64,000 nucleotides of DNA from the NCBI RefSeq assembly GCF_000282095.2, contig NZ_AKKC02000002.1, forward strand, positions 682,001 to 746,000, read 5' to 3'. The notes beneath the pieces were generated by a model. The model was not told the DNA's origin. It saw nothing but the letters and a program-made list of their open reading frames with translations, and made no database searches. Origin of the DNA: Rhizobium sp. CF080. Lineage in GTDB: Bacteria; Pseudomonadota; Alphaproteobacteria; Rhizobiales; Rhizobiaceae. A program made the position numbers and the translations under genes. Of this stretch, positions 6,430 through 56,202 are shown one piece after another. Every line of letters begins with the position of its first letter. The first letter of the stretch is position 1.

Positions 6430-6431
6430 GG

Positions 6432-9825: not shown

Positions 9826-9828
9826 CCG

Positions 9829-14002
<4,174 letters not shown>

Positions 14003-40130: not shown

Positions 40131-40954
40131 CAGACCGCCATCGGGTTGAGACGGCGTGCCATGCGGCTCATGATGAGCACGACGCCGATGGTTATGACCA
40201 CCATGATCGCGGCGATCGTCGAAGCGCCGACCCAGTCGAAGGTCACCATGGCGCGCTGGTAGAGGAAGGTGCCCATCATCATCTGCTTTTCGCCGCCGAG
40301 GAGCTGGGGGGTCGCATAGGAGGTGAAGCTGCCGGTGAAGACCAGCACCGCACCGACGATGAGGCCGGGGGCTGCGAGCGGCAGGATGACCTGAAGGAAG
40401 GTCGGGACCGGCCGGGCGCCAAGCGAGGCGGCTGCCTCAATGAGGTCGCGCGGAATTCCTTCGAGCACCCCGACCAGCGTCAGGATCATCAACGGTACGA
40501 AGAGATAGACCATCGCGACGATGACCGACCCTTGTGTGTAGAGCATCGACAGCGGCTCGCCGATCAGCCCGACCGACATCAGGACATTGTTGATGATGCC
40601 GTTCTTGCCGAGGATGATCAGCCAGGCAAAGGAGCGGACGACAACCCCGGTCAGCAGCGGAAAGACCGCGGCGATGATCATGATACTCTTCAGGCGTCCC
40701 GGCATCTGGGCGATGACATAAGCCGTGATGAAGCCGACCACGAGCGCGATCGCCGTGGTGATCAGGGCGATCTGAAGGGTCCGGTAGAGGACCGCCATGC
40801 GGAAGCCGCTCTTGAAGAAGGCCGCATAGGTGGAGAACGGCCCGCCGGCCTCGCCGAATGTGGTGGCGATCGTCAAGAGGACGGGGATCACCAGAAGCAG
40901 GACGACGGCGATCGTCGCCGGCATCGTCAAACTCCATCTGGCAAGCTTGTTCAT
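40130..40954 (-). CDS. ABC permease (PotB-like)
   Basis: A 274-residue permease with about six membrane segments and an EAA loop RDLIEAAASLGARPVPTFLQVILPL. The ATG at 40954 is preferred to a TTG at 40969. It is separated from the binding-protein gene by 90 bp containing a strong hairpin, so permeases are probably made at a lower level than the binding protein. It pairs with the PotC-like permease. Confidence 0.84.
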   Translation of the reverse strand: MNKLARWSLTMPATIAVVLLLVIPVLLTIATTFGEAGGPFSTYAAFFKSGFRMAVLYRTLQIALITTAIALVVGFITAYVIAQMPGRLKSIMIIAAVFPLLTGVVVRSFAWLIILGKNGIINNVLMSVGLIGEPLSMLYTQGSVIVAMVYLFVPLMILTLVGVLEGIPRDLIEAAASLGARPVPTFLQVILPLAAPGLIVGAVLVFTGSFTSYATPQLLGGEKQMMMGTFLYQRAMVTFDWVGASTIAAIMVVITIGVVLIMSRMARRLNPMAV

Positions 40955-40974
40955 CAGGTACTCTTTCAAAAGCA

Positions 40975-41001
40975 GGAGCGCCGCGTTGATAGCGGCGCTC
41001 C
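40975..41001 (-). terminator. Attenuating hairpin between binding-protein and permease genes
   Basis: GGAGCGCCGC pairs with GCGGCGCTCC around a seven-base loop, a perfect 10-bp stem. On the minus strand it is followed by TGCTTTTG, a poor T-tract, so partial termination or 3'-end protection of the binding-protein mRNA is likely. Confidence 0.55.
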
Positions 41002-41044
41002 GTTCTCAATTCAACCATGCCGCCGGTTCAGACGGCACCAAAAA

Positions 41045-42085
41045 TTACTTGCCGAAAACCTCGTTCCAACGGTCGATCCAGTCGGTCTTGGCGGCGTTCA
41101 TCTTGGCGTAGTCGATACGGCTGAGGCTCGAAACCTGGTCGGCGCCGTAGGTCCATATCTTCGCCTGGTCCGGAGTGAGCACGACCTTGGTGGAGATCGG
41201 CGCGTCAACACCCTGCTCGGCTTCCTTCTGCTGCACATCCTTCGACAGGATGAAGTTGATGAACTGGTGGGCCAGTTCGACGTTTGTCGACCCCTTCGGG
41301 ATGTTGACCGTGTTCAGCGTGGCGATATCGCCGTCCTTGAGTTTCGCCCAGGTCATGGTCTTCACCGCGGCCTGCATGGAGGCGAGCGTGAAGTCCTGGC
41401 CGATCGCGACGCGGACTTCGCCGGTCGAGATCAGGTTCACCAGTTCGGAGCCCGTATTGTAGTTCTTGACGACGTTCGGCTTCAGGGCTTCGATCGCCTT
41501 GAAGGCGCCGTCGGTATTGGCATAGGGATCGACGCCGGCATGCTTGCCCGCTTCGGTCACGACCATCGGGCCGGCCGTGGTGGTGATGCCCGGAAGCGAG
41601 ACCGAGCTCTTCAGGTCCGGACGCCACAGATCGGCCCAGGAGGTGATCGGCGGGTTGACCTTGGCCGCGTCATAAACGAGGCCGATGCGGCCGATCGTAT
41701 AGGCCGGGCCGTATTTGCCCTGCGGCGCACGGCCGAGCTCGTAGATTTCGGAGAGGTTCGGGATCTTCGCCGGATCGACCGGCTGGAAGAGGCCCTGCTC
41801 GATGCCGAGCTGCGAGAAGCTGTCGGTCAGATAGATGACGTCGACGCCCTTGCCGTCGCGCAGCTTCAGCTTGTTGAGTCGGTCGGCATTGTTGCCGGTT
41901 TCGAAAACGATGTCGCAGCCGCAGATCTTCTTGAACGGGTCGATGATGTTGGCGGTCATCTTCTCGCCGTTATAGCCCCACCACGAGATGGTGAGAGTCT
42001 TCGACTGGGCGTTTGCCGTTGCTGCGCCGCTAAGCGTCGCCAGGAGAGCAAGGGTTGCCAATTGGGTGAAACGAGTGGCCTTCAT
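41045..42085 (-). CDS. ABC periplasmic binding protein (PotD-like)
   Basis: A 346-residue binding protein of family 1 with a Sec signal peptide (about 1-26, LATLALLATLSGAATANAQ). The mature start TLTISWWGYNGEKMTANII is of the PotD type. Two cysteines (ICGCDIVFETG) lie in the N-terminal lobe. The ATG at 42085 has AAAGGA upstream; a frame from 42187 would overlap the divergent promoter and is rejected. It heads the 38.3-42.1 kb operon. An adenine-deaminase-family gene is divergent, so a nitrogen-rich substrate is possible. Confidence 0.85.
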   Translation of the reverse strand: MKATRFTQLATLALLATLSGAATANAQSKTLTISWWGYNGEKMTANIIDPFKKICGCDIVFETGNNADRLNKLKLRDGKGVDVIYLTDSFSQLGIEQGLFQPVDPAKIPNLSEIYELGRAPQGKYGPAYTIGRIGLVYDAAKVNPPITSWADLWRPDLKSSVSLPGITTTAGPMVVTEAGKHAGVDPYANTDGAFKAIEALKPNVVKNYNTGSELVNLISTGEVRVAIGQDFTLASMQAAVKTMTWAKLKDGDIATLNTVNIPKGSTNVELAHQFINFILSKDVQQKEAEQGVDAPISTKVVLTPDQAKIWTYGADQVSSLSRIDYAKMNAAKTDWIDRWNEVFGK

Positions 42086-42348
42086 AAGGCGTGTCCTTTT
42101 GCGAAAAGCAGCGGTGATGCTCCCCTGGGGGCACCCCCGGGAATTGAGGGCAATACTATTTTTTGAACGGTCCGGCTGCAAGCCCAATTATTAGGCATGG
42201 ACGTCCAAAGAACCGAATTTCTTTAGGCTTGAAATATATCATACCACAGGTTGATTTCGGGCTAGGGCTCGGAGGAGAATGCACGGTCCGCGATGGTTTA
42301 CACGCCGTGGTATCGTCTTTAGGGTTCGGCGATCAGAACCCCACAGGC

Positions 42349-44232
42349 ATGCTCCCGATGACGATTTCCGCCCCCCTTCCCGACGATTTGCTGATCAACG
42401 CGGCCGACGAGATCCGCATCCGCCAGGACCTGGTGCTGACGGCGCTCGGCAAACGGCCCGCGGACCGATTGCTGAGGGTTGGCAGATTGCTCGATGTCCA
42501 CAGCAGGACATGGCTCGAGGACCAGGAGATCGTCATCAAGGGACGGCGGATCGCCTATGTCGGGCCGGCCGGCAGTTTTGCGGGCGAGGTGACGGACCGC
42601 ATCCACGAGCCGGACCTCTCGGCTGTTCCGGGTTTCGGCGAGGCGCACAAGCATATCGAGAGTTCCCACCTGACGCCGGAATGGGAAGCGGCGCTCGTCA
42701 TGCCGCACGGGGCCACCTGGACTTGCGAGGCGAGCCATGAATTCTCGAATGTCAACGGCGCGCGCAACCTGGAATTCTGGCTTGAAGCGCGCCGCCGCGG
42801 CTCGCCGATGAAGATCTTTCCGCTGCCGGGCTCCGCCGTGCCGCCGACGGCCTATGAATGGGGCGGCGGATATTTCGGCTACGACGAGCAGAAGCAGTTC
42901 ATGAGCGAAAGCCTGATGGTCGCCGGCCTCGACGAGGTGATGGACTGGCCGTCGATCTCCGACCCATCCAATCCCTCCTATGATCGGCTGTGGGGCATGA
43001 TCGGTGCGACCTTCGAGCAACGCGGCGTGGTCGAGGGCCATGGGGCAGGCCTGCGTGACCTAGCCTCGATCAATGCGTTTGCCGCCGCCGGCCTTGCCTC
43101 CGATCATGAAGGCTGGTTCCTGGACGAAATCTGGCAGAAGCTGCAGCATGGGCTGTTCATCGAGCTTCGGCCGCATTCGCTGCCGGAAGTCATCCGCGGC
43201 CTCATCGAAAAAAACCTTGCCGACTGGTCGCAGGTGGCTTTCGTTACCGACGACCGCAGCGCTTCCGATACGCTGAAGATGGGCGCGACCGACTACAACG
43301 TGCGCCTCGCGATCGAGAACGGGCTTGCGCCCGAAATCGCCATTCAGTGCGTGACGCTCAACCCGGCGCGGCATATGCGGCTGACGCCCTGGGTGGGCTC
43401 GATCGCGCCCGGCCGATTCGCGGATATCGTGCTGCTGGACGACGTCGAAAAGTTGTCGATCGCCAAGGTCTGGGCGGATGGCGGGCCGGTGTCGGAAGGC
43501 AAGACGTTTATCGGCGAACGGCCGGTTATCGACTGGCCGGAATGGGCGACAAAGACGGTGAAGATCGACCGTCAGGTGACCGCCGCCGATTTCCGTATCG
43601 CGGCGCCGGCGGATCGCGCCACGGCGAATGCCGCCCTGCTGCGGCCCTTCCACTGGTCGGACGAATTCATCACCATGGAACTGCCGGTCAAGGATGGCGC
43701 CGTCCAGCGTGATCATGACCGCAACGTTACGAAATTCTCGATCGTCGACCGGTTCTCCGGCGAGGCCAAGGTCTCAAAAATGTTCTGGCTCGGCACCGGG
43801 CCGCGCACGCCGGGCACCGCTCTCGGCTCGACGCTCGGGCACGACAAGCACAATATCTGGGTGGTCGGTTCCTCGGACGAGGCGATGGCGATGGTCGCCA
43901 ATGCGCTCGCCGAACAGCAGGGCGGCTGGGTTCTGGTATCCGGCGGCAAGGTGATCGCCCGCGTCCATTACGAAGTCGGCGGGCTGATGACGGCTCGCTC
44001 GGCGGAAGAACTCGATGCGGAAATGCAGGCTCTCTACAAAGCGGGCGAGACGATCGACTGGATGTACGAGCCGACCTTCTCGCCGCGCTGGTGGCCGGGT
44101 TTCCCGGAACGGCTGTCTTTTGCGACGTTGACCTGCTCGCCCTGGCGCTGGGTGCTGGTGGCGCCGTCGGAGCGGGCGCCGGACGGGTTCGTCAACGTGC
44201 TGACCGGTGAAACGCATCCGGTCGCCTGGTGA
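42349..44232 (+). CDS. Adenine deaminase-family amidohydrolase
   Basis: A 627-residue protein of the Ade family. The metal-site strand reads PGFGEAHKHIESSHLTPEW, where usual enzymes have FIDAHVHIESS. MPHGATWTCEASHEFSNVNG, VEGHGAGL, AAGLASDHEG and FVTDDRSASD match other metal-site blocks. The C-terminal Ade domain has LGHDKHNIWVVGSSDEAM. Changes at several usually fixed positions (FGEAHKH; ATDYNV where HIDH is usual) suggest a substrate other than adenine. Starts at 42349 or 42358 are both possible, and the ribosome site is weak. The 263-bp divergent upstream region holds a GGAGGAGA-ATG in another frame (42279) and nothing else I can name. Confidence 0.8.
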   Translation: MLPMTISAPLPDDLLINAADEIRIRQDLVLTALGKRPADRLLRVGRLLDVHSRTWLEDQEIVIKGRRIAYVGPAGSFAGEVTDRIHEPDLSAVPGFGEAHKHIESSHLTPEWEAALVMPHGATWTCEASHEFSNVNGARNLEFWLEARRRGSPMKIFPLPGSAVPPTAYEWGGGYFGYDEQKQFMSESLMVAGLDEVMDWPSISDPSNPSYDRLWGMIGATFEQRGVVEGHGAGLRDLASINAFAAAGLASDHEGWFLDEIWQKLQHGLFIELRPHSLPEVIRGLIEKNLADWSQVAFVTDDRSASDTLKMGATDYNVRLAIENGLAPEIAIQCVTLNPARHMRLTPWVGSIAPGRFADIVLLDDVEKLSIAKVWADGGPVSEGKTFIGERPVIDWPEWATKTVKIDRQVTAADFRIAAPADRATANAALLRPFHWSDEFITMELPVKDGAVQRDHDRNVTKFSIVDRFSGEAKVSKMFWLGTGPRTPGTALGSTLGHDKHNIWVVGSSDEAMAMVANALAEQQGGWVLVSGGKVIARVHYEVGGLMTARSAEELDAEMQALYKAGETIDWMYEPTFSPRWWPGFPERLSFATLTCSPWRWVLVAPSERAPDGFVNVLTGETHPVAW

Positions 44233-44349
44233 ACGGCCCTCGCATCAGCGTGACTTGAAGCGCCGGTCGCGATTTGCCACAAAGCCGGAACCGGTCCCGG
44301 CGCAACCTATCCTCCCTTGAGCGCCGCCGATCGCGCAGAGGAATCCGCC

Positions 44350-45453
44350 ATGGCCCAACCGACACTCTTCACGCCCTTCCGCGTCCGCAATCTCGATCTC
44401 CAGAACCGCATCGTCATCGCGCCGATGTGCCAGTATTCGGCCGAGGACGGCTGCATGACCGACTGGCACCTCATCCATCTCGGCCAGCTGGCGCTTTCCG
44501 GCGCGGCACTGCTCACGATCGAAGCGACCGGGGTCACGCCGGAAGGCCGGATCACCTATGGGGATGTCGGGCTCTATGACGACGCGACAGAGAAAGCGAT
44601 GGCCCGCACGCTCGACAGCATCCGCAAATGGTCGGACATGCCGATCTCGGTGCAGCTCGCCCATGCCGGCCGCAAGGCCTCGTCCGACAAGCCCTGGTTC
44701 GGCGGCAGCCAGATCGCCCCGGACCATCCGAACGGCTGGCAGACCGAGTCGGCCTCGGCGATCCCCTTCAATCCGAAATACGTGGCCCCCGTCGCACTCG
44801 ACAAGGATGGGCTGAAGCGCGTGCGCGATGCGTTTGCGGCTTCCGCCGTGCGGGCTGCAAGGATCGGCCTCGATGCGATCCAGATCCATGCCGCGCATGG
44901 CTATCTGCTGCACCAGTTCCTGTCGCCGCTTTCCAACCGGCGGACCGACGAATATGGCGGGTCGCAGGAAAACCGCATGCGTTTTCCGCTCGAAATCTTC
45001 GATGCCGTGCGTCAGGCTTTCCCCTCCGACAAGGCTGTTACTGTTCGCGTTTCGGCGACCGACTGGGTCGATGGCGGTCTCGACATCGACCAGACCATCG
45101 CTTTTGCCCAGATTCTGGACGAAAAAGGCTGCGACGCCATCCATGTGTCGAGCGGCGGGCTGCATATCGAGCAGAAAATTCCGCTCGGACCGAACTATCA
45201 GGTGCCGCTGGCGCGTGCCGTCAAGGCTGCGGTGAAGATGCCGGTCGTGGCGGTCGGCCTGATCACCGAACCGACGCAGGCGGAAGCGATCGTTTCGACC
45301 GGCGATGCGGATATCGTCGCGCTCGCGCGTGCGGTTCTCTACGATCCGCGCTGGCCATGGCATGCCGCAGCGGAACTCGGCGCCCAGATAAAGCCGGCAC
45401 CGCAATATCTCCGCTGCCAGCCGTCGCAGCTCAGGAACCTGTTTATCGCCTGA
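44350..45453 (+). CDS. NADH:flavin oxidoreductase, YqjM-like Old Yellow Enzyme
   Basis: A 367-residue FMN-dependent ene-reductase. The N terminus has PMCQYSA with Cys27 and Tyr29 as in YqjM, followed by QLAHAGRKASS, IHAAHGYLLHQFLSPLSNRRTDEYGG and a C-terminal phosphate-binding region GDADIVALARAVLYDP. It reduces activated C=C bonds with NAD(P)H in the cytoplasm. The ATG at 44350 has GAGG eight bases upstream; a frame from 44317 is rejected. It follows the Ade-family gene by 117 bp on the same strand. A metabolic link between the two is not evident. Confidence 0.88.
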   Translation: MAQPTLFTPFRVRNLDLQNRIVIAPMCQYSAEDGCMTDWHLIHLGQLALSGAALLTIEATGVTPEGRITYGDVGLYDDATEKAMARTLDSIRKWSDMPISVQLAHAGRKASSDKPWFGGSQIAPDHPNGWQTESASAIPFNPKYVAPVALDKDGLKRVRDAFAASAVRAARIGLDAIQIHAAHGYLLHQFLSPLSNRRTDEYGGSQENRMRFPLEIFDAVRQAFPSDKAVTVRVSATDWVDGGLDIDQTIAFAQILDEKGCDAIHVSSGGLHIEQKIPLGPNYQVPLARAVKAAVKMPVVAVGLITEPTQAEAIVSTGDADIVALARAVLYDPRWPWHAAAELGAQIKPAPQYLRCQPSQLRNLFIA

Positions 45454-45459
45454 CGAGGC

Positions 45460-45963
45460 TCAGGCCTCTTCGTAGACCGCGTCGGCCGGCGCCAGGAGCA
45501 GCCGGTCGGCCATTTCCTGCTTCAGGTAGGTCAGGCGATCTTCCTCTTCCGCCGTGCGGCCCTGTTTCTGGCCAAGCCGGATGAACTCTTCCCGCACATG
45601 ACCGTCCTGCAGCTGAAGCGTCACCGTCCTGCCGCGATAGGTGAGTTCGAAGACGTAGCGCTGCAGGATGTCGCCGCGCTCCGGCTTGTCGAGCGACGGA
45701 TCGACCGTGTAGCGGCCTTCGGTCAGGCCGCGCGTCACCATTTCGAACGCGTCGCGGCCACCCGGACCGCGGAAAGCGGTGCGAATAATGATCTCGCGAC
45801 GCTCCGGCGGGCTGTCGGGACTCAAGAGCGGCATCGCACGCTGCATCACCTTGAAGGCATGGGCGACGCCGCCGGGAAAGCCGAAGCCGTGAAAATGCAT
45901 GAGGTCGGCATAGGTGTAGGAGAGCGGCTTGCCGTCTTCGAGAACGTCGATCGTGTCGATCAT
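45460..45963 (-). CDS. FwdE/FmdE-like protein, last gene of the metal-type importer operon
   Basis: A 167-residue soluble protein. The block MHFHGFGFPGGVAHAFKVMQRAMPLL resembles the FwdE/FmdE domain (usual form FHGH-CPG-A-G), with the Cys of CPG replaced by Phe. A long charged helix at the C terminus (REEFIRLGQKQGRTAEEEDRLTYL) completes it. FwdE-like domains occur in formylmethanofuran dehydrogenase operons and as stand-alone proteins near metal transporters. Formylmethanofuran enzymes are not expected here, so a transport-linked role is inferred. The start overlaps the upstream stop as ATGA. The domain call rests on memory of the motif. Confidence 0.55.
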   Translation of the reverse strand: MIDTIDVLEDGKPLSYTYADLMHFHGFGFPGGVAHAFKVMQRAMPLLSPDSPPERREIIIRTAFRGPGGRDAFEMVTRGLTEGRYTVDPSLDKPERGDILQRYVFELTYRGRTVTLQLQDGHVREEFIRLGQKQGRTAEEEDRLTYLKQEMADRLLLAPADAVYEEA

Positions 45964-46580
45964 TTCGTCTTTGCTCCGTCCAGCTCTTCACGCATCCAGG
46001 GCAAAAAGCCATCCAGGAAACGCGTCGTCGCCGGCATGAAATGGGATCCGTGATGGAAGCACGGATCGAGGCTGGTGATAATCATGCGGCCGGGCGTCGT
46101 CACCTCGTCCACATAGAGAATGGGTTTGCCCTCGCCGTTGACGGCCAGCACGTCGGCGCCTTCCGGCGGATCGAACCAGCCGTGCAGGTGCCAGGTGAGA
46201 TCGTCCTGACCGAGGCGATCGAAGAGCGGATGACCAGGCGCCGCGATGCGGACGCCGAGATCGGCACCGGGCGTCAGCCACCACCACCAGTTCGTCAGCT
46301 GCGGCGTGAAGGCGATGCCTGGAAGGAAGACGTCCCAGTTGGTTTCGCCGGTGGCGACGATCGTGCCGCCCTGGTCGAGATAGGCGCGCAGCTGTGCGGC
46401 ATGCGGCGCGAGGCGATCGGCCGGCGCGCGACACGGAATGAAGACGACGGCGTGTTCGGCAAGGTCCGCGGAGGCCAAGTCTTCCGGCCGCACGAGCACG
46501 TCGAAATGGTGGGCGTAACGTGGCGCTTCGAGCGTCTCGATATGGTAATAGGCGCCGGGATGGATCGCGAGAATGCTCAT
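45960..46580 (-). CDS. Class I amidotransferase-fold protein B (ThuA-like), unknown function
   Basis: A 206-residue soluble protein. The pattern HAVVFIPCRAPADRLAPHAAQLRAYLDQGGTIVATG, then LYVDEVTTPGRMIITSLDPCFHHG, suggests the flavodoxin-like class I amidotransferase or ThuA fold. A canonical nucleophile-elbow Cys-His-Glu triad is not obvious. A Trp-rich stretch (LTNWWWWLTPG) is unusual. The ATG is in a TGATG overlap with the upstream gene, which appears to be a distant relative. Both lie inside the importer operon, so a role in processing or sensing the imported ligand is inferred. Confidence 0.55.
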   Translation of the reverse strand: MSILAIHPGAYYHIETLEAPRYAHHFDVLVRPEDLASADLAEHAVVFIPCRAPADRLAPHAAQLRAYLDQGGTIVATGETNWDVFLPGIAFTPQLTNWWWWLTPGADLGVRIAAPGHPLFDRLGQDDLTWHLHGWFDPPEGADVLAVNGEGKPILYVDEVTTPGRMIITSLDPCFHHGSHFMPATTRFLDGFLPWMREELDGAKTK

Positions 46581-47194
46581 CAGTTCAGCTCTCCGGCAAG
46601 CCAGGCGGTGGCGCGGCTCGCCAATTGCTTCTTGATTTCGGGATCGTCGCCACAACCCCAGAATTCGTTGCCGGCATGGCTGAGGAACTCGCCGCCGTGC
46701 GGCCGAGCCCAGACCCAATCAACCGGGGTTTGTGCCGGGCCGAGCGCATTGATGACGACGGCGCCTTCGGGCGGAGGGTTGTGGCCGCGGCCGTAGAAGC
46801 CCGCGACGCCATGGTTGGTTTCCAGCATCTTCTGGTCGATGCCGGCGAAAATTGGATGGTCGTAAAGCCGCGTCTGCACGAAATCCATCCGCTTCGGGTT
46901 GGGGATGGGCCGGTAGGTGCCGAGTTCGGCCAAGACCGGGCGCAGGATATGGCCGTGATAGATCCAGCGGCCGCCGCGGTCGAGGAACGCGGTAACATCG
47001 GTTGAGAACCGCTGGAAGCCGATCTGGTCGAGATGGGTGGTGGTGATCAGCCCGCGCGCCGTCGCGAAATCCTCGCCGGTCAGCTCCATCTCGCGCACGA
47101 GCTTCATGAGGCCGGAGGCGATGGCATCGCCGAACAGCGGCGCGGTCATCGAGAACGACTCCTGGTAATGCGACTGGATCATCAGGATGGTCAT
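46580..47194 (-). CDS. Class I amidotransferase-fold protein A (ThuA-like), unknown function
   Basis: A 204-residue soluble protein starting MTILMIQSHYQESF. The segment ARGLITTTHLDQIGFQRFSTDVTAFLDRGGRWIYHGHI follows the core of the amidotransferase/ThuA fold, where a strand leads to a helix and then to GG. HPIFAGIDQKMLETNHGVAGFYGRGHN and a C-terminal FLSHAGNEFWG are further conserved-looking blocks. It overlaps the ATPase stop as ATGA and the next gene as TGATG. No catalytic residue assignment is safe. Confidence 0.55.
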   Translation of the reverse strand: MTILMIQSHYQESFSMTAPLFGDAIASGLMKLVREMELTGEDFATARGLITTTHLDQIGFQRFSTDVTAFLDRGGRWIYHGHILRPVLAELGTYRPIPNPKRMDFVQTRLYDHPIFAGIDQKMLETNHGVAGFYGRGHNPPPEGAVVINALGPAQTPVDWVWARPHGGEFLSHAGNEFWGCGDDPEIKKQLASRATAWLAGELN

Positions 47195-47952
47195 GCGGCA
47201 CGGATTCCAGCAAAGGCGGGCAGAACGGCCCGATGGGTTTCGCCGGACGGACCGGCCAGTTCGACGACGCGCATCGGCACGCCATAGAGGCTTTCCAGAT
47301 GTTCCGGCGTGATCGTCTCGGCGACCGGTCCGAACAGCGGCGGCTGGCCGTCCGGCATCATCAGCAGCGCATCGTCGGCGGTGGACAGCGCGTGGTTCGG
47401 GTCATGCGTGGTGAAGACGATCGCCTTGTCGCGCGGCTGGCGCAGCGTGTTGAGCAGGGCCAGCAGCCGTTCCTGATTATGCAGATCGAGGGCCGCCGCC
47501 GGTTCGTCGAGGACCAGCACTTGCGAGCCCGTGGCGATCGCGCGGGCAAGCAGCACGAGCTGGCGTTCGCCGCCGGACAGGCGATCGAAATAGTGATCGG
47601 CGAAACGGGCGGCACCGGCCCGTTCCAGCGCCGAATGGGCGATCCGGAAATCCTCCGGCCCCGGCTGGCCGAAAATGCCGAGATGCGCGGCGCGGCCCAT
47701 GACCGCCACGTCGAGCGCGCGATACCGCTGGTTGCTGGTACCGGTCTGCGGCACATAGCCGACGATATCGGGTGCAACCCTGCGACCATCATCAAGCCGC
47801 TGGAAACCGAGCATGGCCTTCAGCGTCGTCGTCTTGCCGCGGCCGTTCGGGCCGAGGATGGCGAGCGTGCGGCCGACTGGTACCGAGAAGCTTAGGGCTT
47901 CGATGATGATGCGCGATCCGAAACGGACGGTGGCGTCTTCGAGGCCGATCAT
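47191..47952 (-). CDS. ABC transporter ATP-binding protein (FecE/BtuD-like)
   Basis: A 253-residue ATPase of the iron-siderophore/cobalamin importer family. It has Walker A GPNGRGKTTTL, signature LSGGERQLVLLA, Walker B VLVLDEPAAALDL and H-loop TTHDPNHAL. The ATG at 47952 overlaps the permease stop as ATGA. A longer frame reading from 49191 runs antiparallel in reading phase through the permease gene and is rejected. It powers the FecCD-like permease encoded upstream. Confidence 0.88.
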   Translation of the reverse strand: MIGLEDATVRFGSRIIIEALSFSVPVGRTLAILGPNGRGKTTTLKAMLGFQRLDDGRRVAPDIVGYVPQTGTSNQRYRALDVAVMGRAAHLGIFGQPGPEDFRIAHSALERAGAARFADHYFDRLSGGERQLVLLARAIATGSQVLVLDEPAAALDLHNQERLLALLNTLRQPRDKAIVFTTHDPNHALSTADDALLMMPDGQPPLFGPVAETITPEHLESLYGVPMRVVELAGPSGETHRAVLPAFAGIRAA

Positions 47953-49013
47953 GACCCGTTCCTCTCGCGGTAGTGATTGCGCAGGAGCATCGCGAAGATC
48001 GGCGCGCCGACGAGGGCGGTGATGACGCCGAGCGGGATTTCGGCGGCGGTCGCGGTGCGGGCGAGCGTATCGATGATCACCATGAAGCCGGCGCCGAGCA
48101 CGACCGAGGCCGGCAGCAGCGCGCGGTGGTCGTGGCCGACCAGCAGGCGGCAGGCATGCGGGATGACGATGCCGATCCAGCCGATGATGCCGGAGACGGC
48201 CACCTGGCTGCCGACGATGACGGCGATCAGCCCGAACACCATCCAGCGTTCGCGGTTGGTCTTGGCGCCGAGGCTCTGAGCCTCCGACTCGTCCAGCGAC
48301 AGGATGTTGAGGCGGAAACGCAGCATCCACAGAAGCACGCCGCCGATGATGAGGCCGGGCGCGGCGATCAGCGTACGTTCCCAGGTCGCCGTCGCAAACG
48401 AGCCCATCAGCCAGTAGACGATGGCCGGAAGCGACGTGTTCGGGTCGGCGACGAATTGCAGCAGCGAGACGACGGCCGAGAACATCGAGCTGACCACGAG
48501 GCCGGAGAGGATCACGGTGATCGTTTCGCTGCGGCCGTTGATGCGCGAGATCAGGCCGACGAGGATCACCGCCGCCATGCCGGAGATGAAGACCATGGAG
48601 ATCAGCGGGAAACCCCAGACGCCGAGCATGATGCCGAGCGCACCGCCGAAGGCTGCTCCTTGCGAGATGCCGAGGATATCCGGCGAGACCAGCGGGTTGC
48701 GGAAAACACCCTGCAGCGCCGCACCCGACAGAGCGAGCCCGGCGCCGGCGAGCGCTGCGAGCACCACGCGTGGTGCCCGGACCAGAAGAACGATGCGCTC
48801 GTCGATCGTGGTGAGTTCCCGCCACGGGTCGGTGGCGCCGAGCCAGATCAGCTCCAGCGCACGGGTTGCCGGGACAGAAAAACGGCCGACGCAGAGACTG
48901 ACCACGAAAGCGACCGCAAACAGCGCCAGCAGCCCTGCGAAAACCAGGGTCTGCCGTGCCAAGTGCGCGCGGCGGACCATCGGAGCCGTCTCGTCCTGCG
49001 TCAGCGCCGCCAT
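47949..49013 (-). CDS. ABC permease, FecCD family
   Basis: A 354-residue permease with about ten membrane segments. Family motifs include GAGLALSGAALQGVFRNPLVSPDILGISQGAAFG and the C-terminal GWIGIVIPHACRLLVGHDHRALLP. FecCD permeases form homodimers or pairs that move siderophores, heme, cobalamin or related metal chelates. Only one permease gene is present, so a homodimer is expected. It lies 3 bp after the binding-protein gene. Confidence 0.9.
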   Translation of the reverse strand: MAALTQDETAPMVRRAHLARQTLVFAGLLALFAVAFVVSLCVGRFSVPATRALELIWLGATDPWRELTTIDERIVLLVRAPRVVLAALAGAGLALSGAALQGVFRNPLVSPDILGISQGAAFGGALGIMLGVWGFPLISMVFISGMAAVILVGLISRINGRSETITVILSGLVVSSMFSAVVSLLQFVADPNTSLPAIVYWLMGSFATATWERTLIAAPGLIIGGVLLWMLRFRLNILSLDESEAQSLGAKTNRERWMVFGLIAVIVGSQVAVSGIIGWIGIVIPHACRLLVGHDHRALLPASVVLGAGFMVIIDTLARTATAAEIPLGVITALVGAPIFAMLLRNHYRERNGS

Positions 49014-49016
49014 GAC

Positions 49017-50108
49017 CTACTTCGCCTTGAACTGGGCGTAGTTGGCCGAGCCGCTCTGTTCCTTCATCCACAGGATGCCGTCGATATCGGCATCGGTGAT
49101 GTCGTAGTTGTAGAGCGTCTTGTAGGCGGTCTTCATCTCGGCGCGCAGATCGTATTTGAAGACGTCCGGCTGGGTGATATTGGCCGTCCACATCCAGGCC
49201 AGCGGCGATTCCTGGTTCGGCGGGTCCCAGCGATAGCCGCCGAGCGGCATCTTGTAGACGCGCTTGTTCCTGGCCGCCTTGGTCAGCGACAGGATCGGGT
49301 CGCTATAGACCCAGTCGACGTTCAGTTTGGCTTCGAAGGCGTTGAGGAAGATGATTTCCGGATCCCACTGAGCGATCTGCTCCTTGTTGATCGTCACCGT
49401 GCCGTTGAGTTCGGCCGAGGCGTTCTTGCCGCCGACGAGTTCCATGTACCAGGCATTGTAGCTGCCCTTGGTTCCCGTCGTGGCGATGTCGGTCAGTGCA
49501 CGGGCGATATAAAGCGTGGTCGGCTTCTTGTCTTCCGGGATCGCCTTGGCTTTCGCCTCGATGTCCTTCTGCACCCGGTCGCGCCACTCGACCAGTTCCT
49601 TGATGCGCTCCGGCTTGCCGATCGCCCTGGAGGTCATCGTCATGTAGTCGCGGGTCAGCTGCTCTGTGCCGTAGAGGATCAGCATGGCGTTGAGGCCGGC
49701 ATTGGTGATCGGCGCGACGATGTCGTTGCCGCGGCCGCCCCACTGGATGACGAGATCGGGGTTGGTCGCCGTCAGCGCCTCGACGTTCGGCACGAAATTC
49801 GGTGCGGTCACGTCGGACGGGATGTCCTTGGTTTCCGGAAAGATCTTGCTCAGGATACCTTCGAGCACGGCGCTCTTGGCGGTCGGGTTCATGCCGACCA
49901 GCTTCTTCGTCCCGCCGTCGAGGGCGATCACCGTGGAGGCCATCGGAATGACGATCGAGACGATGCGTTCGGCGGCTTTCGCGAGTTTCACCTCGCGGTT
50001 TTCCTGATCCTTGAAAATGATCTCCTCCGCCGCGGCACCATGCGCCAGCAAGCCGGAAAGTGCAGCGGCCAGAAGGCAGCGCGTAGCGAAACGAGTGAGC
50101 GAAACCAT
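49017..50108 (-). CDS. ABC periplasmic binding protein (FecB/BtuF-like, metal or chelate)
   Basis: A 363-residue binding protein with a Sec signal peptide (about 1-27, CLLAAALSGLLAHGAAAEE) and a periplasmic-binding domain of the TroA/FecB class. Blocks are ERIVSIVIPMASTVIAL, ATNPDLVIQWGG and, near the C terminus, WDPPNQESPLAWMW. The long form of about 360 residues with NQESPL is seen in members linked to metal or corrinoid uptake. It is the first gene of a six-gene operon. I find no cobalamin riboswitch and no outer-membrane receptor gene nearby. Confidence 0.83.
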   Translation of the reverse strand: MVSLTRFATRCLLAAALSGLLAHGAAAEEIIFKDQENREVKLAKAAERIVSIVIPMASTVIALDGGTKKLVGMNPTAKSAVLEGILSKIFPETKDIPSDVTAPNFVPNVEALTATNPDLVIQWGGRGNDIVAPITNAGLNAMLILYGTEQLTRDYMTMTSRAIGKPERIKELVEWRDRVQKDIEAKAKAIPEDKKPTTLYIARALTDIATTGTKGSYNAWYMELVGGKNASAELNGTVTINKEQIAQWDPEIIFLNAFEAKLNVDWVYSDPILSLTKAARNKRVYKMPLGGYRWDPPNQESPLAWMWTANITQPDVFKYDLRAEMKTAYKTLYNYDITDADIDGILWMKEQSGSANYAQFKAK

Positions 50109-50318
50109 GATCTATCCCCTGCCGGTAACGTCGTCGGGGAGCATTCCTAATGCGCGTGATTATTCTTGTCTACAAATCTCCACTTTTAAAAGAGCTTTTC
50201 ATCCAACCTGGTGCCCTGTGACGGGCTCAAATCGCCCGGTCGGTGCATTCACGCTCGCAAAGCAGCGGGCGGGCGGCTATGGAACGCTGGTGTCGATCGA
50301 TTTCATCAGAGGATATTC

Positions 50319-50876
50319 ATGCCGACCATCTACCTCGCCGGCCCCGAAGTATTTCTGCCCGATGCCCAGACCGTGATGGGCGAAAAACGGCGGATTGCCC
50401 GCAGCTTCGGTTTCGAGCCGACCGGTCCCGGCAGCGACGAGAACCAGGCGCCGGTCGGACGGCTGACGGCAGCCGCGATCTACCAGCGTAACGAGGACGC
50501 GACGCGGCGCGCGGATGTCTGCCTCGCCAATATCACGCCGTTCCGCGGCATCAGCGCCGATCCCGGTACCGTCTACGAAGTCGGTTTCATGATCGCGCTC
50601 GGCAAACGGGTCTGGGCCTATACCAACCATCCCGACGACTATGGCATGCGGGTACGGTCGATCTGGTATGCCGGACTCCACATCGATGAAAGCAGCGGCC
50701 GCCCCCGCGGTCCCGACGGACTGTCGATCGAGAACCACGGCAAGTCCGACAATCTGATGATCGACGTCGGCATCGAAGCGGGCGGCGGCCGTGTCATCCG
50801 AGCCTCCGCTTTGCCGACCGATCCCGAACGGGAACTCGCGGCCTATACCGAGGCGTTGCGGCACTTGCGGGCTTAG
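50319..50876 (+). CDS. Nucleoside 2-deoxyribosyltransferase-like protein
   Basis: A 185-residue protein starting MPTIYLAGPEVFLPDAQTVMGEK. It has the family blocks AAIYQRNEDATRRADVCLANITPFRG, DPGTVYEVGFMIALGK and, near the end, SDNLMIDVGIEAGGGRVI. The Glu in TVYEVG is at the catalytic position. Members exchange bases on deoxynucleosides or cleave N-glycosidic bonds. The ATG at 50319 has GAGG six bases upstream. The 210-bp region upstream, shared with the divergent binding-protein gene, shows no clear operator. It converges on the GntR gene with a 4-bp overlap. Confidence 0.82.
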   Translation: MPTIYLAGPEVFLPDAQTVMGEKRRIARSFGFEPTGPGSDENQAPVGRLTAAAIYQRNEDATRRADVCLANITPFRGISADPGTVYEVGFMIALGKRVWAYTNHPDDYGMRVRSIWYAGLHIDESSGRPRGPDGLSIENHGKSDNLMIDVGIEAGGGRVIRASALPTDPERELAAYTEALRHLRA

Positions 50877-51601
50877 CCGAGCGACAGGGCGTCCTTGAGA
50901 CCCAGGCCCTGTTTCACCTGGAGATCGAGATCGGCTTCGATATGGTCGATGTGGTGGATCATGAGCTTGGCGGCACGCTCGCCATCACCCTTTTCCAGGG
51001 CGTCGAGAACGGCGGTATGCTCGGAATGCCCGCAGCTCGACACGCCGGAACGGCCATAGAGCGCAATCACCAGCGATGAACGGGCGACCAGCTCGTCCAT
51101 GAAACGCTGCAGGATGACGTTGCCGGCAACGGATGCCAGCATCAGATGGAAATCCCCCGAAGCCTTGATCTCGGCGCGGCGCGCGGCCGGGCCGCGCTCG
51201 TTCATGTAGCGCTCTTCCTCGTTGAGCTGACGGCGGAACTCCGCGATGTCCTCAGGCGTGATGCGCTCGACCGCAGCCGCGACAATGCCGGGCTCGATCA
51301 GCCGGCGCGAGGCAAAAATCTGGCGCGCTTCTTCCGGCGACGGATTGGAGACGAAGGCGCCGCGGTTACGCTCGGTCTTCACCAGGCCTTCGAAGGCGAG
51401 CATCTGCAGTGCGGCGCGGGCCACCGTGCGGCTGACGTCGAAGAGAGAGCCCACTTCGCTTTCAGACAGTTTGGTGCCGGGCGCGAGACGCCGGTCGATG
51501 ATCGCATTGCGTAAGGATTCCCGGATCGCCATGGAGCGATCTTCCGGGGAACGTTCCTCGGGTGTGGTGTCGGTAAGATTGATCTTTTCGCTGATATTCA
51601 T
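50873..51601 (-). CDS. GntR-family (FCD-type) transcriptional regulator
   Basis: A 242-residue regulator with an N-terminal winged helix (about 22-90, LRNAIIDRRLAPGTKLSESEVGSLFDVSRTVARAALQMLAFEGLV) and a C-terminal FCD ligand domain (about 100-230), where GDFHLMLASVAGN and HSEHTAVLDAL give the usual Asp/His metal ligands. FCD regulators usually repress catabolic operons until a carboxylic-acid ligand binds. It is divergent from the PotABCD-like operon. The ATG at 51601 excludes a 57-residue upstream extension that would run into the operator region. Confidence 0.87.
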   Translation of the reverse strand: MNISEKINLTDTTPEERSPEDRSMAIRESLRNAIIDRRLAPGTKLSESEVGSLFDVSRTVARAALQMLAFEGLVKTERNRGAFVSNPSPEEARQIFASRRLIEPGIVAAAVERITPEDIAEFRRQLNEEERYMNERGPAARRAEIKASGDFHLMLASVAGNVILQRFMDELVARSSLVIALYGRSGVSSCGHSEHTAVLDALEKGDGERAAKLMIHHIDHIEADLDLQVKQGLGLKDALSLG

Positions 51602-51680
51602 TGCTGGAGTCCGATGTCCGGCTTTTGTAACCCGAGTGGCTACAGAATGCCAAGCGACTTGTTTTTGATCCAATGTCAAG

Positions 51681-51715
51681 ATTGCATACGATTTGCCCAA
51701 AGGATCGCAAACGAT
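51681..51715. promoter_or_regulatory. Repeated candidate GntR operator
   Basis: ATTGCATACGAT (51681-51692) and ATCGCAAACGAT (51704-51715) are similar 12-mers spaced 23 bases apart, about two helical turns. The first is close to ATTGTATACAAT, a form often bound by FCD-type GntR repressors. Both lie in the 240-bp divergent region between the GntR gene and the importer operon. Confidence 0.45.
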
Positions 51716-51841
51716 CGCACGATTTTTACGCAGTCGCAAAACGCAACCGCCAAGGCCTCGAGGTAAAGCCAAGTCTTTCTAAAGGTTTAGTCGAGTTGGC
51801 ACGGCTGATGCATAGCTATATCAGACGCAAGGGAGCGCCTG

Positions 51842-52933
51842 ATGAGCAAAGCCGCCGAAATCGACATCGCTTCAGTCTCTAAGATCTACGGAACAACCAC
51901 GGCCGTTCACGCGATCAGCCTGAAGATTCCGGCCGGAACCTATTGCTGCCTGCTCGGACCGTCCGGCTGCGGCAAGACCTCGACGCTCAGGATGATCGCC
52001 GGCCATGAGAGCATTTCCTCGGGCGACGTCCGTCTCGGCAACATCGTCGTCACCGACCTGCCGCCGGCCAAGCGCGGCACGGCGATGATGTTCCAGTCCT
52101 ACGCCCTCTTCCCGCATCTCGACCTCGTCGACAATGTCGCTTTCAGCCTGAAGATGAAGGGCGTCGACAAGGACGAGCGGCGCGCCAAGGCGATGGACAT
52201 GCTGCAACTGATGCAGCTCGAAGCCTATGCGACCCGCCGCCCGGCGCAGCTTTCCGGCGGCCAGCAGCAGCGCGTGGCGCTTGCCCGCGCGCTGATCACC
52301 GATCCGGAAGCGCTGCTGCTCGACGAGCCGCTCTCGGCGCTCGATCCGTTCCTGAAGATCCGCATGCGCGCGGAACTGAAGAAGCTGCAGACCTCGCTCG
52401 GCATCACCTTCGTGCATGTGACGCATAGCCAGGAAGAGGCGATGGCGCTCGCCGACCTGATCGTGGTGATGAACGATGGCCGGATCGAACAGGCCGCCCA
52501 TCCGCGCGTCGTGTTCGAAAAGCCGGCCACCGCCTTCGTTGCCAAGTTCATGGGCGATCACAACGTCATTTCCGGCCGGGTGACGCAGAGTTCCGGCGAC
52601 AAGCTGATGTTGTCCGTGCCTGCAGGCGGCGATTTCCTTGCCACCGATGACGGCGCAGCCGGGCTGACCGATACCGCCGATATCGCCATCCGCACCGACC
52701 ATGTTCGCATCGGCCAGCCTTCCGAAAAGGGCCTCGGCTTCACCGGCTCCGTCTCGAACGTGGAATATCGCGGTTCCTCGGTAAAACTCTCGGTCAACGG
52801 CGCAGGGATCGAGGATTTCACCGCGATCCTGACCGACGCCGAATTTTTCGCCAATCCGGTCAAGGTCGGAGAAGCGATCCCCCTTTCCTGGGGCCGCGAG
52901 GATGCGATCGTCCTCGGCCGCCTCAAGAACTGA
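51842..52933 (+). CDS. ABC transporter ATP-binding protein (PotA-like)
   Basis: A 363-residue ATPase with Walker A GPSGCGKTSTL, signature LSGGQQQRVALA, Walker B ALLLDEPLSALD, H-loop VTHSQEEAM and a TOBE domain (about 285-360). It heads an operon of ATPase, binding protein, two permeases, racemase and acetyltransferase. In this operon the ATPase is encoded first, unlike the 38-42 kb system. It is probably repressed by the divergent GntR regulator. Confidence 0.87.
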   Translation: MSKAAEIDIASVSKIYGTTTAVHAISLKIPAGTYCCLLGPSGCGKTSTLRMIAGHESISSGDVRLGNIVVTDLPPAKRGTAMMFQSYALFPHLDLVDNVAFSLKMKGVDKDERRAKAMDMLQLMQLEAYATRRPAQLSGGQQQRVALARALITDPEALLLDEPLSALDPFLKIRMRAELKKLQTSLGITFVHVTHSQEEAMALADLIVVMNDGRIEQAAHPRVVFEKPATAFVAKFMGDHNVISGRVTQSSGDKLMLSVPAGGDFLATDDGAAGLTDTADIAIRTDHVRIGQPSEKGLGFTGSVSNVEYRGSSVKLSVNGAGIEDFTAILTDAEFFANPVKVGEAIPLSWGREDAIVLGRLKN

Positions 52934-52969
52934 TGCCACCAAAAAACTCAACCAGAGGAGAACAAGGCA

Positions 52970-54259
52970 ATGACTGAGACCAAGAAGACACCTAAGGGAA
53001 TTTCGCGCCGCACGCTTCTGAAGACGGCGTCCGCCGCGGCCGGTCTTGCCGCCGGCTCCGGCGCCATTACCGGCTTCCCGACCATCTGGGCCCAGAACCC
53101 GATCACGCTGCGCCAGTTCGGCACCGGCGTTTCGAACCTCAATGCGATCGCCGAGAAGTGCAAGGCCGACCTCGGCATCACGCTCGAAATGACCGCGACG
53201 GATTCGGATGCCGCCGCCCAGCGCGCCGTCACTCAGCCGAATTCCTACGACATCGCCGACATCGAATACTGGATCCTCAAGAAGGTCTATCCGGCCGGCG
53301 TCATCCAGCCGATGGATACGACCAAGCTCAAATATTACGACAAGATCGTGCCGCTGTTCAAAAACGGCAAGCTGAAGCCGGACAGCGTGATCGCGCAAGG
53401 GACCGCGCCGCACACGGTCGGTTATGTCGCCAAGCCCGGCGACAAGACCTTCGCCAAGGAAGAGACCAAGTGGTTCACGATGGTTCCGACCATCTACAAC
53501 GCCGACACGCTCGGCATCCGCCCGGACCTGGTCGGCCGCGAGATCTCGACCTGGGCCGACATCATGGACCCGAAGTTCAAGGGCAAGGCCTCGATCCTCA
53601 ACATCCCGTCGATCGGCATCATGGATGCCGCGATGATCATGGAGGCCATGGGCAACATCAAGTATGCCGACAAGGGCAACATGACCAAGGCGGAGATCGA
53701 CAAGACGATCGACTTCCTGATCAAGGCGAAGCAGGGCGGCCAGTTCCGTGCTTTCTGGAAGTCGTTCGACGAGAGCGTCAACCTGATGGCCTCGGGCGAA
53801 GTCGTCATCCAGTCCATGTGGTCGCCGGCCGTTGCCGCCGTCCGCTCCAAGGGCATCGCCTGCAAATACCAGCCGCTCAAAGAAGGTTATCGCTCCTGGG
53901 GCGGCGGTCTCGGTCTTGCCGCCCATCTTTCGGGCGCCAAGCTCGATGCGGCCTATGAATATATCAACTGGTACACGTCCGGCTGGGTCGGCGCCTATCT
54001 CAATCGCCAGGGCTACTATTCGGCCGCCATGGAAACCGCCAAGGCCCACATGTCTGCCGACGAATGGGGCTACTGGATCGAAGGCAAGCCGGCCAAGGGC
54101 GATATCGTCGCTCCGGACGGCAAGGTCATGGAAAAGGCCGGTGCAGTGCGCGACGGCGGCTCCTTCGAGGAACGCATGGGCCACGTGGCCTGCTGGAACT
54201 CGGTCATGGACGAGGACCGCTACATGGTCCGCCGCTGGAACGAGTTCATCGCGGCGTAA
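52970..54259 (+). CDS. ABC binding protein (PotD-like), Tat-exported
   Basis: A 429-residue binding protein with a twin-arginine signal (SRRTLLKTASAAAGLAAGSG, about residues 12-31), cleaved near TIWAQ. The mature start PITLRQFGTGVSNLNAIAE is of the family-1 type. Tat export implies folding before transport. The AGAGGAGAA site precedes the ATG. It is followed by a pair of palindromic repeats before the permease genes. The ligand is not evident; the racemase encoded downstream suggests a ureide or hydantoin. Confidence 0.85.
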   Translation: MTETKKTPKGISRRTLLKTASAAAGLAAGSGAITGFPTIWAQNPITLRQFGTGVSNLNAIAEKCKADLGITLEMTATDSDAAAQRAVTQPNSYDIADIEYWILKKVYPAGVIQPMDTTKLKYYDKIVPLFKNGKLKPDSVIAQGTAPHTVGYVAKPGDKTFAKEETKWFTMVPTIYNADTLGIRPDLVGREISTWADIMDPKFKGKASILNIPSIGIMDAAMIMEAMGNIKYADKGNMTKAEIDKTIDFLIKAKQGGQFRAFWKSFDESVNLMASGEVVIQSMWSPAVAAVRSKGIACKYQPLKEGYRSWGGGLGLAAHLSGAKLDAAYEYINWYTSGWVGAYLNRQGYYSAAMETAKAHMSADEWGYWIEGKPAKGDIVAPDGKVMEKAGAVRDGGSFEERMGHVACWNSVMDEDRYMVRRWNEFIAA

Positions 54260-54301
54260 GGCCCCAGGGTCCGGCGCTGCAGGCCTAGCGTCCCTGAACC
54301 C

Positions 54302-54400
54302 GTCATCCTCGGGCTTGGCCCGAGGATCCACGCCAGGGGCGAGAGAGCGAAAGGGCGCACGGACGACGAAATGGATCCTCGGGTCAAGCCCGAGGATGAC
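54302..54400. repeat. Pair of inverted intergenic palindromes (REP/BIME-like)
   Basis: Copy 1 (54302-54330) and copy 2 (54372-54400) are nearly exact reverse complements, each with the core CCTCGGGC-N3-GCCCGAGG (copy 1) or its counterpart. Each copy can form its own hairpin and together they can form a long stem. Such CGTCATCCTCGGGC elements are common between rhizobial genes. Located between the binding-protein and permease genes, they may stabilise the upstream mRNA. Confidence 0.75.
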
Positions 54401-54452
54401 GACCGGGTGAGGAAGCATATTCCGCTCTCGGGTAACCCCAGGGAGACGAAAC

Positions 54453-55364
54453 ATGGCGACGATCACATCCTCGGAACCAGATAGTGCCGACATGACGAAG
54501 GCGAAAGGCTTTCGTCTGTCGCCGGCGCTGATCTCCTATCTTCAGGCGACGCCGCTGGCGCTGATCCTCGGCGCCTTTCTGCTCCTGCCGATCCTGATGA
54601 TTACAGTCGTCAGCTTCTGGGATTACGACTTCGCCCAGATGTACCCCGACCTCCTGACAATGAACTATACGGAGACGCTGGGTTCGTGGGTTACCTGGAA
54701 GACCTATCTGAACACCCTCAAATTCGCCTTCCTGGTCTGGGCGATCACGCTGTTCGTCGGTTTCTGGGTTGCCTATTTCCTCGCCTTCCACATCCGCACC
54801 ACCGCCATGCAGATGGTGCTCTTCCTCGTCTGCACCGTGCCGTTCCTGACGTCCAACATCATCCGCATGATCTCGTGGATCCCGGTGCTGGGCCGTAACG
54901 GTCTCGTCAATACGACGCTGATCAACGCCGGCATCATTCCCGAGCCGATCGAATGGCTGCTCTATTCGGATTTCGCCGTCGTGCTCGCGATGGTGCATCT
55001 CTACACGCTGTTCATGGTGACGCCGATCTTCAACACGCTGATGCGCATCGACAAATCGTTGGTGGAAGCCGCCCGCGACGCCGGTGCGACGAGCACGCAG
55101 ATCCTCACCAACGTCATCATTCCCCTCGCAAAACCCGGCATGGCGATCGGCACCATTTTCGTGGTGACGCTGGTGATGGCGGATTTCTCGACAGTGCAAG
55201 TCATGTCCGGCGGCCAGAGCGCCTCGGTGGCGCTGATGATGAAGAACCAGATGTCGCTGCTGCAATATCCGGCGGCGGCCGCCAACGCGGTCGTGCTGCT
55301 TATCCTCGTGCTGCTGATGGTCGCGGGCATCCTGCGCATCGTCGACATCCGCAAAGAGCTTTAG
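54453..55364 (+). CDS. ABC permease (PotB-like)
   Basis: A 303-residue permease with about six membrane segments (the first around 32-54) and an EAA loop KSLVEAARDAGATSTQILTNVIIPL. GGGAG lies seven bases before the ATG at 54453. It pairs with the PotC-like permease encoded 19 bp downstream. Confidence 0.86.
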   Translation: MATITSSEPDSADMTKAKGFRLSPALISYLQATPLALILGAFLLLPILMITVVSFWDYDFAQMYPDLLTMNYTETLGSWVTWKTYLNTLKFAFLVWAITLFVGFWVAYFLAFHIRTTAMQMVLFLVCTVPFLTSNIIRMISWIPVLGRNGLVNTTLINAGIIPEPIEWLLYSDFAVVLAMVHLYTLFMVTPIFNTLMRIDKSLVEAARDAGATSTQILTNVIIPLAKPGMAIGTIFVVTLVMADFSTVQVMSGGQSASVALMMKNQMSLLQYPAAAANAVVLLILVLLMVAGILRIVDIRKEL

Positions 55365-55383
55365 GAAAAGGGAGAGTTTTGAG

Positions 55384-56202
55384 ATGCACAGCGACAAGCG
55401 CGGCCGCGAATTCTACCTTCTCGCCATCTTCTTCGTCATCTTCGTGCTGTTCCTTTACGGCCCGCTCTCGGCAATCCTGATTCTTTCCTTTCAGGGGCCG
55501 AACGGCGGCCTGACCTTCCCGCTGAACGGGGTGTCGCTGCGCTGGTTCGCCAACCTGTTCGAGACCCAAGCGGTCGGCGATTTCGGCGGATCGTTCCGCC
55601 GTTCCGCCATGCTCGGCATCATGGTGATGATCGTCACCGTCGTGGTCTCGCTCCTGGCAGGACTTTCCTTCCGCCGCCGCTTTATCGGCTCGACCGCGCT
55701 GTTCTATCTCGCGGTCGCCAGTCTCGTCGTACCGTCGATCATCATCTCCCTCGGTATCGGCGTCGTCTTCCAGCAGCTCGGTTTCCAGCCGTCCTGGTAT
55801 ACGTCCGCCTTCGGCGCCCATCTCACCTGGACGCTGCCCTTCGGCGTGCTGATCATGTTTGCCGTGTTCAACCGTTTTTCGCCGGCCTACGAGGAAGCCG
55901 CGCGCGATCTCGGCGCCTCGTCCTGGCAGACCTTCGCCCATGTCGTGCTGCCGATGATCGCGCCGAGCCTTGTGGGTGTCGGCCTGTTCGGCTTCACGCT
56001 GTCCTATGACGAATTCGCGCGCACGTTGATGACCGCGGGTACGTTCAACACGCTGCCGCTCGAAATCTATGGCATGACCACCAATGTCACGACGCCGGTG
56101 CTCTATGCGCTCGGCACGGTGACCACGGTTTTCTCCTTCCTCGTCATCGCCGGCACGCTCGGCCTGATCGTCCAGCTCAATCGCCGCCGCCTGCGGTCGT
56201 GA
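55384..56202 (+). CDS. ABC permease (PotC-like)
   Basis: A 272-residue permease with about six membrane segments and an EAA loop PAYEEAARDLGASSWQTFAHVVLPM. AGGAAAAGGGAG lies upstream of the ATG. It completes the ATPase-binding protein-permease-permease set, and its stop overlaps a possible GTG start of the racemase gene. Confidence 0.86.
   Translation: MHSDKRGREFYLLAIFFVIFVLFLYGPLSAILILSFQGPNGGLTFPLNGVSLRWFANLFETQAVGDFGGSFRRSAMLGIMVMIVTVVVSLLAGLSFRRRFIGSTALFYLAVASLVVPSIIISLGIGVVFQQLGFQPSWYTSAFGAHLTWTLPFGVLIMFAVFNRFSPAYEEAARDLGASSWQTFAHVVLPMIAPSLVGVGLFGFTLSYDEFARTLMTAGTFNTLPLEIYGMTTNVTTPVLYALGTVTTVFSFLVIAGTLGLIVQLNRRRLRS

Follow-up and report, generated by a model that had tools for sequence, protein, structure and literature searches.

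Ferric-siderophore importers of the FecBCD/FhuBCD type combine a periplasmic substrate-binding protein (SBP), a FecCD permease and an ATPase; in Rhizobiales such systems can be accompanied by TonB receptors and be under RirA control. To our knowledge, release of the metal from imported chelates is understood for only a few ligand classes. A 64,000-nucleotide stretch of Rhizobium sp. CF080 (contig NZ_AKKC02000002.1, positions 682,001 to 746,000 of the forward strand), here termed the window, has an operon of six minus-strand genes at 45460-50108. It encodes an importer of the same three protein families and, unlike FecBCD/FhuBCD systems, three conserved extra proteins: a ThuA1-ThuA2 pair of predicted GATase1/ThuA fold and a predicted FmdE-fold protein. 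The operon further resembles these systems in the iron-type operator of its sister clades and in the TonB receptor beside some copies, but its equivalog scores are far below cut-offs and its promoter, unlike that of the RirA-controlled systems, lacks the operator. The operon probably serves to take up a metal chelate (a ferric complex most likely) and to process it in the cytoplasm.

At the level of gene order, the six-gene set is a real unit. The genes overlap or are spaced by 3 bp (ATGA and TGATG junctions), as described in an original prediction made from the sequence alone, which also considered them one operon. A scan of genome contigs with ThuA2 peptides collected 67 loci, so that ThuA2 itself is a given in each of them, unlike the other five genes. 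All six genes are matched in the order of the window in 48/67 loci, where a match is a tblastn match and does not imply an intact gene. ThuA1 and ThuA2 are neighbours in all 67 loci, 35 of which have them fused in one frame, and an FmdE gene is no more than 9 kb away in 58. A FecCD permease is found near ThuA2 in 54 loci, a Nik/Opp-type importer in six (weakly in L082) and neither in seven. Thus, the accessory genes travel with an importer and are mostly not beside unrelated genes. Among the seven loci with neither importer, L051 and L067 are truncated at a contig end, L037 and L040 start near one such that the usual importer position is out of view, and L052 has an ATPase fragment and a second SBP with no permease match.

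The flanking DNA varies among several loci while the six genes persist; in L022, L028 and L029 no match to window DNA extends beyond them. Over some 16 kb that include the operon, the DNA is collinear with Neorhizobium loci L016-L018 and L043 and Rhizobiales locus L019 at approximately 91-93% identity, which points to an organism close to Neorhizobium. In sampling independent of ThuA2, the FmdE-like gene is patchy, present in 7/289 genomes of the class and 11/199 of the family, the genome of the window counted. One gene matches in pieces in L027, L048 and L071. In L027, from strain 3841, the permease of the set (5572-6635) matches in two pieces in different frames, so that a working copy may be missing from this well-studied strain.

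The importer parts are securely assigned by Pfam. The SBP (49017..50108, minus strand, 363 aa) matches Peripla_BP_2 with 54.5 bits, has an N-terminus that by eye is signal-peptide-like, and finds its best PDB match in 4ovk (E 3e-49). The permease (47949..49013, minus strand, 354 aa) matches FecCD with 284 bits, and the FecE-like ATPase (47191..47952, minus strand, 253 aa) matches ABC_tran with 75.7 bits. All three scores are above the curated cut-offs and the genes are adjacent, which defines a FecBCD-type importer. The original prediction of a metal-chelate-type importer is thus borne out for the protein families, with the specific cargo a matter of likelihood. Among the NCBIfam matches listed (for the ATPase, the best 25 of 193), none is above the model's cut-off for any of the six proteins, and the named-transporter equivalogs for B12, Fe-citrate, hydroxamate and heme are not reached.

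The three accessory proteins are all below curated Pfam cut-offs. ThuA1 (46580..47194, minus strand) is the counterpart of the N-terminal half of the protein that is fused in relatives, shows no signal peptide by eye and has no Pfam match. ThuA2 (45960..46580, minus strand) displays conserved PCR, TNWWWWL, TWHLHG and HHGSHFMP stretches and scores 21.0 of the 25.9 bits needed for DUF4159. The ThuA family is matched at E up to 0.1 by 3/43 alignment members. Structure prediction supports a ThuA/GATase1 fold, found for both halves of a fused relative, as well as an FmdE core fold. The fused relative would thus share its fold with known ThuA/GATase1-like proteins (PF06283, DUF4159; 1t0b, 3soz, 2gk3, 3rht). 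Unlike these, ThuA1 and ThuA2 are paired, mostly importer-linked, and have their own motifs with sub-threshold sequence scores. They probably form a heterodimer, since they are fused into one protein in many relatives.

The FmdE-fold protein (45460..45963, minus strand) scores 15.2 of 22.9 bits against PF02663, below the gathering score; at E up to 0.1, PF02663 is matched by 10/32 alignment members, including the window protein, with a best value of 3.7e-4. The two amidotransferase-fold proteins and the FwdE-like protein of the original prediction are therefore supported as predicted folds and not by Pfam gathering scores. In PMC2954224, the metal ligands of FmdE are given as His15, His17, Cys19 and Cys55 of the 2glz protein, and most family members are said to adjoin metal-ion transporter genes. 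Compared with PF02663 proteins (2glz, 2gvi), the second His and first Cys of H-x-H-x-C are Phe in the window protein: a motif alignment retains H25 but has F27 and F29 at the positions of the ligand His and Cys, and it lacks the other Cys ligand. No Cys is invariant among 32 FmdE-fold sequences; the invariant residues are instead HG, PGG and RD, and most relatives have a (F/Y)HG-x-G-F-PGG motif. With most published ligands lost, a classical FmdE metal site is unlikely. When the PDB was searched with the FmdE profile, all matches were to repeat proteins (TAL effectors) at a few bits per repeat, and phmmer with the window protein gave mainly ubiquitin rows (E 3e-4 and worse); both are judged to be chance.

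At the DNA level, an iron-type operator is found upstream of the SBP gene in sister clades. The RirA operator consensus is TGA-N9-TCA in two papers (PMC6386902; PMC8822346). Sixty SBP upstream regions were reduced by similarity to 43, and the motif is present in 26 of these, two of them from a branch linked to carbon-phosphorus (C-P) lyase genes. Other spacings (3 to 19, not 9) reach at most 8/43, and Markov shuffles give a mean of 2.5 and a maximum of 9 in 1000. Control open reading frames of the same loci, which are long and machine-picked and some of which may be non-genes or genuine RirA targets, are preceded by the motif in 32/343 cases. Eighteen further hand-chosen upstream regions include eight with the motif and ten with none. 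The clade of the window instead keeps, by eye, a promoter-like TAGACA-N17-TAGGAA (50144..50172, minus strand) and an upstream block, GTGGAGATTTGTAGAC (50168..50183, minus strand), both shared with close relatives. The block was tried as a regulon mark and rejected: it is found once in the genome at up to two mismatches, and at up to three there are 18 matches versus 15 for a reversed control.

Outer membrane partners and other importers are seen in relatives. The original prediction saw no TonB receptor, which holds for the window stretch read but not for relatives, some of which have receptors adjoining the set. In the Cupriavidus locus L092, which has no FmdE match, a TonB receptor is just upstream on the same strand (Pfam); in L044 it is divergent (Pfam); in L056 it is downstream of a FecR gene (receptor by tblastn, FecR by Pfam); and in L087 and L107 it is the convergent neighbour according to the record annotation. 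In two loci with a Nik/Opp-type importer, L039 and the plasmid-borne L090, a HupE/UreJ_2 protein is encoded between the importer and the ThuA pair (105 and 125 bits); its family includes metal permeases. FmdE-like genes are also found on either side of, or next to, an SsuABC/NrtA-type importer in L085 (a plasmid of E. coli ED1a) and L100 (Azospirillum), which links a third class of importer to this subfamily. In L056, L062, L088, L094, L101 and L096, also on plasmids, there are related systems that combine a FecBCD importer of greater distance with another double-length ThuA-like protein, sub-threshold for DUF4159/ThuA in L088.

A paralogous set of SBP, permease, ATPase and FmdE genes continues into phnGHIJKL on plasmids and in some other genomes. 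By annotation, this sister operon is present in Proteus L084, Martelella L086, Labrenzia L089 (where the stretch ends within phnI), Rhizobium L097 and L098, and Agrobacterium vitis L102. It shares phnGHIJKL and the PhnJ cysteine motif CX2CX21CX5C with described C-P lyase operons (phnCDE with phnGHIJKLM and further genes). Unlike these, it has a FecBCD-type importer and FmdE instead of phnCDE and an iron-type operator upstream, and no phnM is annotated downstream in L084, L086, L097, L098 and L102. The cysteine motif is kept in L068, L086, L098 and L102, and Proteus L084 PhnJ has a 19-residue spacing in it. In A. vitis L102 and in L073 the sister operon comes after the six-gene set, separated from it by no more than a LysR gene in the opposite orientation; L072 has the same arrangement, but its contig starts in the ATPase gene. 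A ThuA1-ThuA2 gene precedes the SBP in L067-L069, L086 and L089, with ThuA1 detected only from residue 67 in L068 and L086.

All 12 alphaproteobacterial loci with the sister-operon SBP have TGA-N9-TCA, in six different sequences, at a distance of 28-31 bases from the estimated start of the SBP gene. Two of these loci (L067 and L069) are cut before any phn gene and several others are near-identical to one another, so that they do not represent 12 independent events. The Proteus sister operon has no such motif before its SBP gene; a candidate Fur box there was rejected, its best match having six mismatches, a level reached in 25/300 shuffles. Among the ThuA2 loci, phnI and phnJ occur in 5/67; a count of 27 phn-linked loci is inflated by general ABC-ATPase hits of PhnK. 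Both phnG and phnI are detected in two of the 11 FmdE-bearing family genomes (L114 and L115). An enterobacterial version of the sister operon occurs in 3/5426 E. coli genomes, on plasmids. The importer-FmdE-phnGHIJKL operons of the Proteus plasmid and the three E. coli plasmids are 99.9% identical, and the operon therefore moves between enterobacteria. Neither the C-P lyase link nor the iron operator was foreseen by the original prediction.

The window operon has no phn genes among its six, and the two PhnJ loci of the host genome are elsewhere; the 20 kb around each has no SBP, permease, ThuA or FmdE relative and only general ABC-ATPase hits. One of them, L105 (C6:125000-144900), has phnGHIJKL by tblastn and, by eye, phnM-, phnCDE- and GntR-like open reading frames. 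Its PhnJ (9560-10474, minus strand) lacks the CX2CX21CX5C cysteines, and motif-less PhnJ 72-77% identical to this copy is found in four more of 151 family genomes. Twenty-five other family PhnJ loci among the matches listed keep the motif, with about 70 further ones outside the count. A conserved PhnJ without iron-sulfur ligands suggests a different reaction.

The importers (FecBCD, and Nik/Opp with HupE/UreJ) and the iron operator have metal-chelate uptake as their common denominator; the ThuA pair, the FmdE fold and, in one branch, the C-P lyase have ligand processing. Taken together, these argue that the most likely role of the window operon is to bring in a ferric chelate, or one of another metal, and to take it apart or strip it within the cell. 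The FecB-like protein would capture the complex in the periplasm, to be moved into the cytoplasm by the permease and ATPase. Once inside, the complex may be bound by the ThuA1-ThuA2 pair and the degenerate FmdE-fold protein, which may remove or degrade its ligand and so free the metal. One branch has a similar importer and FmdE protein that would supply PhnGHIJKL with a ligand whose carbon-phosphorus bond this complex would cleave; that this ligand bears a phosphonate is suggested by the linkage together with C-P lyase chemistry.

Several observations weigh against ferric chelate uptake and processing. RirA control of the window copy was rejected: the promoter has no TGA-N9-TCA within 200 bp, and the motif is absent from all seven dereplicated members of the clade, window included, so that iron control of this copy finds no support in an operator. 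The motif is also absent from 250 bp in the TonB-linked L087 and L107 and from the scanned stretch of L090, L079, L091, L093 and L100. By eye, no TonB receptor is present among the open reading frames read around the window operon. L032 and L033 have the ThuA pair clearly without these importers, as judged by Pfam neighbours, with another ABC ATPase near the pair in L032. With its metal ligands mostly lost, direct metal handling by the FmdE-fold protein is doubtful, and a fold comparison demonstrates no activity. SsuABC-type importers are found with ThuA or FmdE relatives (L093, L085 and L100), and this linkage fits an organic anion as cargo as well as a metal chelate.

This raises the question of whether the cargo might be a metal-free organic anion, a phosphonate or similar small acid used as a nutrient, with an importer that has drifted and a catabolic role for the accessory trio and the C-P lyase. 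The phn genes in five ThuA2 loci and on several plasmids, the SsuABC- and Opp-type importers and the loss of most FmdE metal ligands would be in keeping with this; yet the enrichment of the RirA operator, its presence in every alphaproteobacterial locus of the C-P lyase branch, the TonB receptors and the HupE/UreJ_2 partners all make it unlikely. Less probable still is import of heme, a corrinoid or a Mo/W complex, with the FmdE protein handing the metal or cofactor to an enzyme. The permease and ATPase do score best against BtuC and corrinoid-ATPase models, the FmdE name derives from a molybdenum enzyme operon, and the SBP has a weak PDB match to HI_1472, a molybdate-type binding protein. However, all equivalog scores listed are far below cut-off (for the permease, 233 bits versus 461 for BtuC), no Rfam family, riboswitches included, matches the window at its gathering score, FmdE has lost most of its ligands, and no formylmethanofuran or formate dehydrogenase genes are among the neighbours in annotated plasmid stretches. 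The corrinoid-like cargo of the original prediction thus finds no specific support and was rejected. An equally improbable account takes the importer for an ordinary ferric-siderophore system and the three genes downstream of it for passengers with no processing role. FecBCD-type importers are common, with 14 Peripla_BP_2 matches in the host genome, but the trio stays with the importer in most loci and also occurs with another importer family, and the overlapping starts and the domain fusion argue against passengers.

If the operon does process a metal chelate, the conserved importer and accessory trio represent a possible new metal-release route with defined, testable genes. Perhaps, and this is put forward tentatively, these operons form a family of iron-repressed systems that take up a ferric complex intact and then degrade its ligand in the cytoplasm with a ThuA1-ThuA2/FmdE-fold machine; in the mobile branch, a C-P lyase under iron and not phosphate control might cut a phosphonate chelator, such as a natural or man-made aminopolyphosphonate, in the service of iron acquisition. 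DTPMP, a phosphonate chelator, was used to restrict metals in E. coli (PMC10763504). An iron-controlled C-P lyase, if true, would change the view of this phosphorus-scavenging complex and may be relevant to what becomes of phosphonate chelators. In searches of the open-access literature, no description of the six-gene set, as originally supposed, or of an iron-controlled C-P lyase operon was found among the matches listed, nor one of FmdE or RirA with C-P lyase.

The host genome is 7.05 Mb in size. The flanks of the operon (39342-45453 and 50211-56202) have, by eye, polyamine-type ABC importers, an adenine-deaminase-like amidohydrolase and a nucleoside-deoxyribosyltransferase-like gene, and, by Pfam, an oxidoreductase of the old-yellow-enzyme type.

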